From positions 1 through 64,000 of the forward strand of contig JBDSQB010000023.1 of the NCBI GenBank assembly GCA_039930045.1: a stretch of DNA of 64,000 bases, given 5' to 3'. Shown here in pieces: positions 58,477-61,804 of the stretch. The stretch's first letter is position 1. Each line of letters begins with the position of its first letter. The notes below the pieces were generated by a model, which made no database searches, was not told where the DNA came from, and saw only the letters and a program-made list of their open reading frames with translations. Origin of the DNA: Chthoniobacterales bacterium (lineage in GTDB: Bacteria; Verrucomicrobiota; Verrucomicrobiia; Chthoniobacterales; DASVRZ01). A program made the translations under genes and the position numbers.

Positions 58477-58568
58477 TGGCGGAAGGGGTGGGATTTGAAC
58501 CCACGATGCCTTTAACAGCATGCTCGATTTCGAGTCGAGTACATTCAACCAAGCTCTGCCACCCTTCC
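58477..58568 (-). tRNA. tRNA-Ser (anticodon CGA)
   Basis: 92 nt including encoded CCA. Acceptor arms GGAAGGG and CCCTTCC pair perfectly; the anticodon stem CTCGA/TCGAG encloses loop CTCGAAA with CGA as anticodon, reading UCG. A long variable arm follows (class II tRNA) and the T-loop GGTTCAAATCC is present. The G73 discriminator is normal for serine. Confidence 0.95.
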
Positions 58569-60416: not shown

Positions 60417-61804
60417 ATGGATCGCATCGTCGGGATCGAGATCGAATACGGCTGCCTCGCCACCGGCCCCCTCGCCGCCTCCTGGCCAGCGCGGGTGAGA
60501 AATTTCCTCTTCGCCGAACGCCAGCGCGGCCTCATTGACCAGCATTACCGCGATTACGAGGAGCCTCCCGGCAACGGCGGATTCCTCTTCAATGGCGGCC
60601 GCCTCTACCTCGACATGGGCCACCTCGAATACGCCACCGCCGAGTGCCTCGACCTCCATGATCTCGTCGCCCACGAGCTCGCCGGCGACCAGCTCATCCT
60701 CGAAGCCCTCCAATGCCTGAGTGAAATGGAACCCGACTCTGACGTTTCCTTCCTCAAAAACAACATCGACCACTTCACCGACGCCACCTTTGGCTGCCAT
60801 GAAAACTACCTCATGCAGCGCGACGCCCTTTTACCGACGGTGCCCTCGGAGCCCTCCTCGCCTTCCTCGCCACCCGGCAAATCTTCACCGGCAGCGGACG
60901 CATCGGCAGCGCCGCCCCACAATTCTACACCGACCCCGAGGAGCCCCTCCTCACCCCGCAGTTCCAGATGAGCCAGCGCGCCGACCACATGGTCAACGAC
61001 ATCTACCAGTGGGTGCAATTTAACCGCTCCATCATCAACGCCCGCGACGAACCCCTCGCCGACCCGCGCCGCTACCGCCGCCTCCACCTCCTCATCGGCG
61101 ACTCGAATATGAGCCCCTACGCCATCGCCCTCAAAGTCGGCACCACCGCCCTCATCCTCCGGCTCCTCGAAGAACAGGCCCTCCCCACCGACCTCGCCCT
61201 CCTCGACGCCGTCCATACCACCCGCACCCTCTCGCGCGACATCGGCGGCGCCTGGCTCGTCCGCTTGGAAAATGGGGAAACGATCAGCGCCATCGACCTG
61301 CAACTCGCCTTTCTCCGCGCCGCCCGCGACCGCTTTGCCCACGAAAACCCCGAGACCGACTGGGTCCTTGCCCAGTGGGAATACGTTCTCACCCATCTGC
61401 GCAGCGACCCCGAGAGCCTCCTCGGCGGCGTGGACTGGCTCACGAAACACTGGCTGCTCCAGCTCTTTGCCGACGCCGAACACCTCGCCTTCGACGATCC
61501 GTGGATGCTCAGCCAGGACCTCGAATACCACAACATCGACCCCGCGCGCGGCCTCTTCCACTCCATCGAGAGCGCCGGGGAGATCCGCCGCTTTAACGAC
61601 TCCGCCCGCCGCGCCAACGCCCTCGGCGAGCCCCCGGCCAACACCCGCGCTGCGGGTCGTTCCACCGCCATGCACCGCATCCGGGAGCGCGGCCTTCCCT
61701 ATTTTCTCAACTGGGACGCCGTCGCCCTCGACGAACACCGTACCCTGCTCCTGCCCGACCCATTCCGCCCTTACTCGACTGAAGCCGCCGCCTTCCTGCC
61801 CTAA
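60417..61804 (+). CDS. pafA: Pup-ligase (PafA)-like protein, interrupted by a one-base frameshift
   Basis: Two frames join into about 462 residues, the normal PafA length, if one base is added to the TTTT run at 60829-60832. Part 1 has MDRIVGIEIEYG (metal-binding Glu), GGRLYLDMGHLEYATAEC (catalytic Asp) and LKNNIDHFTDATFGCHENYLMQRDA. Part 2 (new frame) has LLAFLATRQIFTGSGRIG, MSQRADHM, IINARDEPLADPRRYRRLHLLIGDSNMS, KVGTTALIL and ends with DPFRPY. The short N-terminal region lacks the Dop loop, and GCHENYL and the ending favour the ligase PafA over the deamidase Dop. No Pup, Dop or proteasome gene is in the window. The LacI gene upstream is separated by a terminator. Confidence 0.87.

Follow-up and report, generated by a model that had tools for sequence, protein, structure and literature searches.

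A PafA-type ligase gene with a broken reading frame and its probable place in a dispersed UBact–proteasome system of a Chthoniobacterales bacterium

At positions 60417-61804 (+) of the window (the whole 64-kb stretch of DNA analyzed here) lies a gene for a PafA-type (Pup/UBact) ligase, a protein outside Actinobacteria, whose frame is interrupted partway through and beside which no gene of a tagging pathway is apparent. The locus thus raises the question of whether we are looking at an isolated ligase, at a decaying relic, or at one part of a larger system in which a single gene is disrupted, either in the organism or in the assembly.

The motifs GIEIEYG, RLYLDMG, YATAEC, GCHENYL, RDEP..RRYRRLH, and GDSN occur in this order in the open reading frames and sequence of the gene. 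The Pfam family PF03136 matches it twice, at 60423-60836 (102 bits) and, in a different frame, at 60839-61723 (287 bits), such that positions 1-440 of the profile are covered completely and contiguously but across two frames (Table 1). A homology-free hidden Markov model (HMM) of coding potential, trained on the bacterium's own genome, likewise places a frame switch at 60830, inside the run of four T residues where the initial annotation had located a break; both lines of evidence confirm that location. The first frame stops at 60971 (TGA 60969-60971), whereas the second is open up to the stop at 61804, and the gene as written yields no full-length ligase. The sole tRNA in the window, a tRNA-Ser (CGA), is found at 58477-58568 (-).

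Table 1. Coordinates of the parts of the ligase gene and of its frame break in the window
Feature	Position	Strand	Evidence and remarks
5' part of the pafA-type UBact ligase gene, residues 1-138	60417..60830	+	Glu-x-Glu motif and predicted catalytic-base Asp (RLYLDMG); PF03136 positions 1-154; TIGR03686 80 bits vs TIGR03688 62 bits
TTTT run, site of the frame break	60829..60832	+	Net -1 base vs relatives; HMM switch at 60830; contiguous PF03136 positions in two frames; relatives unbroken
3' part of the ligase gene, in the shifted frame up to the stop; remaining ligase and C-terminal domain	60830..61804	+	PF03136 positions 155-440; TIGR03686 230 bits vs TIGR03688 210 bits
Out-of-frame extension of about 46 codons that translation would add past the break, ending in a TGA shared in part with a downstream-frame ATG (ATGA, 60968-60971)	60831..60971	+	Open reading frame list and sequence

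Because PF03136 includes both PafA and the depupylase/deamidase Dop, the type of the protein must be settled within the family. In our tree, the window protein groups within the clade formed by PafA proteins from UBact genomes (support 100/100), and the topology in which it groups with Dop is rejected (p-AU 0.0004). When two actinobacterial PafA sequences are included, the division of all PafA from all Dop has support of 95/86; in the same setting, an arrangement in which the actinobacterial PafA and Dop group apart from the UBact ones (that is, a separate duplication) is not rejected (p-AU 0.2). These comparisons make the window protein a likely strict ortholog of actinobacterial PafA, rather than the product of an independent duplication. 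The Dop-loop, which has been described as a feature separating Dop from PafA (PMC7947786), was not found in the window protein upon alignment, and a paralogue encoded on another contig of the genome (C18) carries the Dop-loop region.

Summed over its pieces, the window protein reaches 310 bits with the PafA model TIGR03686 vs 272 bits with the Dop model TIGR03688, and its fragments (80 and 230 bits) miss the TIGR03686 equivalog cut-off of 551 bits. The NCBIfam models look tuned to other lineages, as the intact Dop, Mpa, and proteasome subunits of the same genome are likewise below their cut-offs. In a phmmer search against the PDB, Dop (4b0r, 231 bits) scores slightly above PafA (4b0t, 220 bits). 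The protein has in common with actinobacterial PafA the PF03136 domain, the Glu-x-Glu motif, the RLYLD catalytic region, GCHENYL, RDEP, GDSN, and a lack of the Dop-loop, and differs from it in its model score, in its alpha-loop, and in having UBact instead of Pup as partner tag; with Dop it shares the family and the slightly higher phmmer score, but the missing loop, the tree, and the presence of a separate Dop on C18 set it apart.

The alpha-loop of the window protein (VNDIYQWVQFNRSIIN) is unlike those of actinobacterial PafA and Dop: It has VNDIYQWVQFNRS where PafA has WEGVSSATTRSRP, and the actinobacterial residues are absent. Since order-level relatives have the same form, it marks the UBact branch and does not exclude a PafA type. 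Across the window (60993-61040) and the relatives, the loop of this branch, VNDIYQWVQFNRxIINARDEP, is nearly invariant. Taken together, the safest statement is that the gene encodes a PafA-type ligase of the UBact branch. Membership in some other carboxylate–amine ligase family unrelated to protein tagging is extremely improbable: The superfamily is wide, but we found no support for such a reading, and it is contradicted by matches to PF03136 and TIGR03686 along the entire length, by the position in the tree, and by relatives that carry UBact, Mpa, and Dop as well. The initial annotation had proposed a PafA-type ligase outside Actinobacteria with a link to UBact; the motifs, the domain, a placement within PafA rather than outside PafA/Dop, and the UBact gene of the same genome all bear this out.

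Whole-genome searches show where that UBact gene and the other partners are. As had been observed from the window alone, the 64 kb contain no Pup/UBact, Dop, proteasome, or Mpa gene; UBact, the proteasome subunits, Mpa, and the second PF03136 protein are found only on contigs C15 and C18. Contig C15 encodes a UBact of 58 residues (MPDRLQKPLVP...LLKRMRKVDPEQSKRYRQRTGQ, with the C-terminus ...RYRQRTGQ), which matches Pfam PF20513 with 68.9 bits and NCBIfam NF033388 with 74.6 bits (cut-off 35) and lies directly upstream of adjacent genes for proteasome beta (TIGR03690, 171 bits) and alpha (TIGR03691, 84 bits); in the translated beta subunit, Thr1, Asp17, and Lys33 are in place. The PF03136 protein on C18 is intact and full-length (542.9 bits) and scores as Dop (TIGR03688, 487 bits, vs 370 bits with the PafA model); its best PDB matches, over nearly its whole length, are the Dop structures 4b0r/5lrt (401 bits, vs 260 bits for PafA 4b0t), and it carries a stretch corresponding to the Dop-loop. 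Its gene comes directly after that of a proteasomal AAA ATPase, Mpa (TIGR03689, 460 bits; OB domains PF17758 and PF16450). With the tag, dop, prcA, prcB, and mpa all recovered from one genome, the suggestion of an isolated ligase does not survive, and the window gene very probably supplies the ligase to a UBact–proteasome system that is complete but has its parts spread over three loci.

The components correspond to those of the UBact conjugation system of Gram-negative bacteria (PF20513, NF033388), namely a UBact ending in Gly-Gln, a PafA-type ligase, Dop, a proteasomal ATPase, and proteasome alpha and beta; the differences are that they are spread over three loci rather than clustered, an arrangement common to most of the order, and that the ligase frame is broken in the assembly. 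Such systems in Gram-negative phyla, among them Verrucomicrobia, were already known, as the existing Pfam and NCBIfam families attest, and Lehmann et al. in 2017 reportedly described them. What is uncommon here is only the scattered gene order and a possible fresh loss of the ligase.

To place the locus among its relatives, we considered 57 order-level genomes, with named matches from Chthoniobacterales, Spartobacteria, Udaeobacter, and Chthoniobacter. PF03136 is present in 23 of these genomes, UBact in 23, and Mpa in 21, with the three sets overlapping almost entirely, and about 20 of the relatives have the same UBact–proteasome set; a Pup-like substrate, which the initial annotation had called for in related genomes, thus occurs in 23/57. 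Most genomes bearing PF03136 have exactly two copies, a Dop scoring ~545 bits and a protein of the window's type scoring ~420 bits, and the UBact of relatives ends in RTGQ or RTGE. One genome, G003, has a second, divergent UBact gene, whose product is 45% identical to the UBact of the window's genome and which, within the stretch read, has no proteasome gene as a neighbor (the two loci are L162 6609-6782 on G003:C227 and L040 on G003:C5). Relatives of the window protein are encoded in 562 candidate stretches on contigs of species-level genomes, with the best matches mostly from Chthoniobacterales; the best 80 of the 562 were retained and are referred to below as the named relatives. PafA/Dop in Verrucomicrobia were called very sporadic in a 2020 study (PMC7947786), but the UBact ligase is not sporadic here. 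Two database labels deserve mention in passing: The 11.85-Mb Nonomuraea replicon with pafA in L160 (NZ_LT559118.1) is filed as a plasmid but is evidently a chromosome, and two metagenome-assembled genome (MAG) contigs labeled Prosthecobacter debontii (L124, L127) may be mislabeled, their ligase grouping with that of a genome of the window's order (G014).

Gene order in these stretches accounts for the solitary appearance of the window gene. Four loci of other Verrucomicrobia and of Latescibacteria, namely L129, L133, L141, and L142, show the order mpa-dop-UBact-prcB-prcA-pafA, and dop-UBact-prcB-prcA-pafA is seen, without Mpa within the stretch read, in L128; in Chthoniobacter flavus (L108), UBact-prcB-prcA follows 1.6 kb after pafA. 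Among loci with at least 8 kb on either side, a partner gene is near pafA in 8/27 and none is near in 19/27, so a separated pafA is the usual state in this order. An ancestral mpa-dop-UBact-prcB-prcA-pafA cluster appears to have survived in other Verrucomicrobia and Latescibacteria and to have been broken up, in this order, into loci that lie apart, and it is because of this splitting that the window ligase looks lone. According to Iyer et al. 2008 (PMC2588565), every lineage known at the time had Pup and PafA as genomic neighbors; that one-neighborhood arrangement is not seen here, where the genes are on three contigs. A search around pafA in the 80 named relatives (best 80 of 562) did not turn up the window's LacI-type regulator or its HolA-like gene.

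We turn now to the frame break itself. At the corresponding site, the named relatives (again the best 80 of 562 stretches) mostly read (K/R)REAQFTP, with T runs 2-4 long, and all 80 have a single unbroken frame; as the residue preceding the conserved Phe differs in the window (it is mostly Gln in relatives), the exact base lost is not readable from the comparison. Reading through the break, one finds 154/160 near-invariant residues kept (the columns in question have a conservation of 98% or more among 82 relatives), with mild substitutions at the other six. The Dop of the same genome deviates at 15/198 such residues vs 6/160 for the ligase, with the Dop comparison set being the smaller. GC3 is 0.80 before the break and 0.86 after it. 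This degree of preservation speaks against an old pseudogene and lends no support to the decaying relic that the initial annotation had entertained, and the conservation suggests that the gene was under selection until very recently. With coding sequence conserved on both sides, the break must be either very recent or an assembly error. At a separate locus, L129 (6551-8118) of a bog Verrucomicrobia MAG, dop matches in two overlapping pieces, suggesting a frame break in the UBact pathway there too.

Scanning 427 kb of the genome (383 kb called coding) with the same HMM revealed no other frame switch away from an upstream gene end, at a sensitivity, estimated from simulated one-base deletions, of 127/300 (42%). 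At this sensitivity, the scan lends no support to an error-rich assembly; the assembly does not seem riddled with indel errors, but isolated ones may occur.

We see about an even chance that the organism has an intact, working ligase and that the break arose in sequencing or assembly or is a within-population error. Indel errors often take the form of one base lost in or beside a T run, the remainder of the ligase gene is conserved with similar GC3 on its two sides, Dop, Mpa, UBact, and the proteasome genes are all intact, and none of the 80 named relatives is broken; on the other hand, the T run is short, and an assembly that looks good (23 contigs), with no other clear break in the 427 kb scanned at 127/300 sensitivity, implies that indel errors are uncommon. 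That same solitary status of the break favors a real and recent mutation, by which the UBact ligase would only lately have disappeared from a lineage that still has the tag, Dop, Mpa, and proteasome, an account that we consider well within reach although somewhat short of even. The terminal branch of the window PafA (0.94) is longer than that of the own-genome Dop (0.53), in a tree for which no close relative of this lineage is sampled, and loss does occur in the order: Many relatives are without the system, and one (G022) retains UBact-prcB-prcA with no detectable PafA, Dop, or Mpa. Against a real loss, the ligase gene has no further inactivating change, and its near-invariant residues are better kept than those of Dop, with no period of relaxed selection visible.

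It is very unlikely that the ligase is instead made by recoding (-1 ribosomal frameshifting) or as two separately translated fragments with a restart at the ATGA. The site, C CTT TTA C, does contain a short stretch of T, and the downstream-frame ATG does overlap the upstream stop, but the site does not conform to the standard X XXY YYZ heptamer, and the ATG is explained by an ordinary Leu/Ile-to-Met difference. A run of four T is too short for transcription slippage. Translated separately, the pieces would divide the catalytic domain between them and leave out about 48 residues, a product begun at the ATGA would miss the first ~183 residues, including the predicted catalytic Asp, and 0/80 of the named relatives (best 80 of 562) have a break at the site.

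If the homologous Pup pathway is a guide, Dop would deamidate the C-terminal Gln of UBact to Glu, after which the ligase, with ATP, would form a gamma-glutamyl phosphate on this Glu and join it to lysines of target proteins; Mpa would then recognize the tag and feed tagged proteins to the PrcA/PrcB proteasome, and Dop may also remove or recycle the tag. ATP-dependent conjugation of the tag to lysine is in this sense a prediction, and we found no biochemical test of a UBact ligase in the literature searched. Should the break be real, this strain would lack the step that follows UBact deamidation; a PF03136 search of the 99.9%-complete assembly found no second ligase gene. A comparable case may be G022 (96% complete), in which profile searches did not detect PafA, Dop, or Mpa and in which UBact, PrcB, and PrcA are encoded at 8555-8337, 8193-7402, and 7259-6504 of L161 (G022:C66); either two loci are missing from that draft, or the conjugation half has been lost.

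For this order, then, a missing neighborhood is no evidence for a missing system. The alpha-loop, which in actinobacterial PafA and Dop helps set ligase vs hydrolase activity (PMC7947786), offers in its UBact-branch form a specific target for mutagenesis. Less likely than not, but conceivable, is that the break is real and that this organism represents a natural UBact system just after loss of its sole ligase, with the tag, deamidase, ATPase, and proteasome remaining and the proteasome then used without tagging, as may be so in G022; were the break real, the strain would be a natural test of the role of the proteasome in the absence of tagging.
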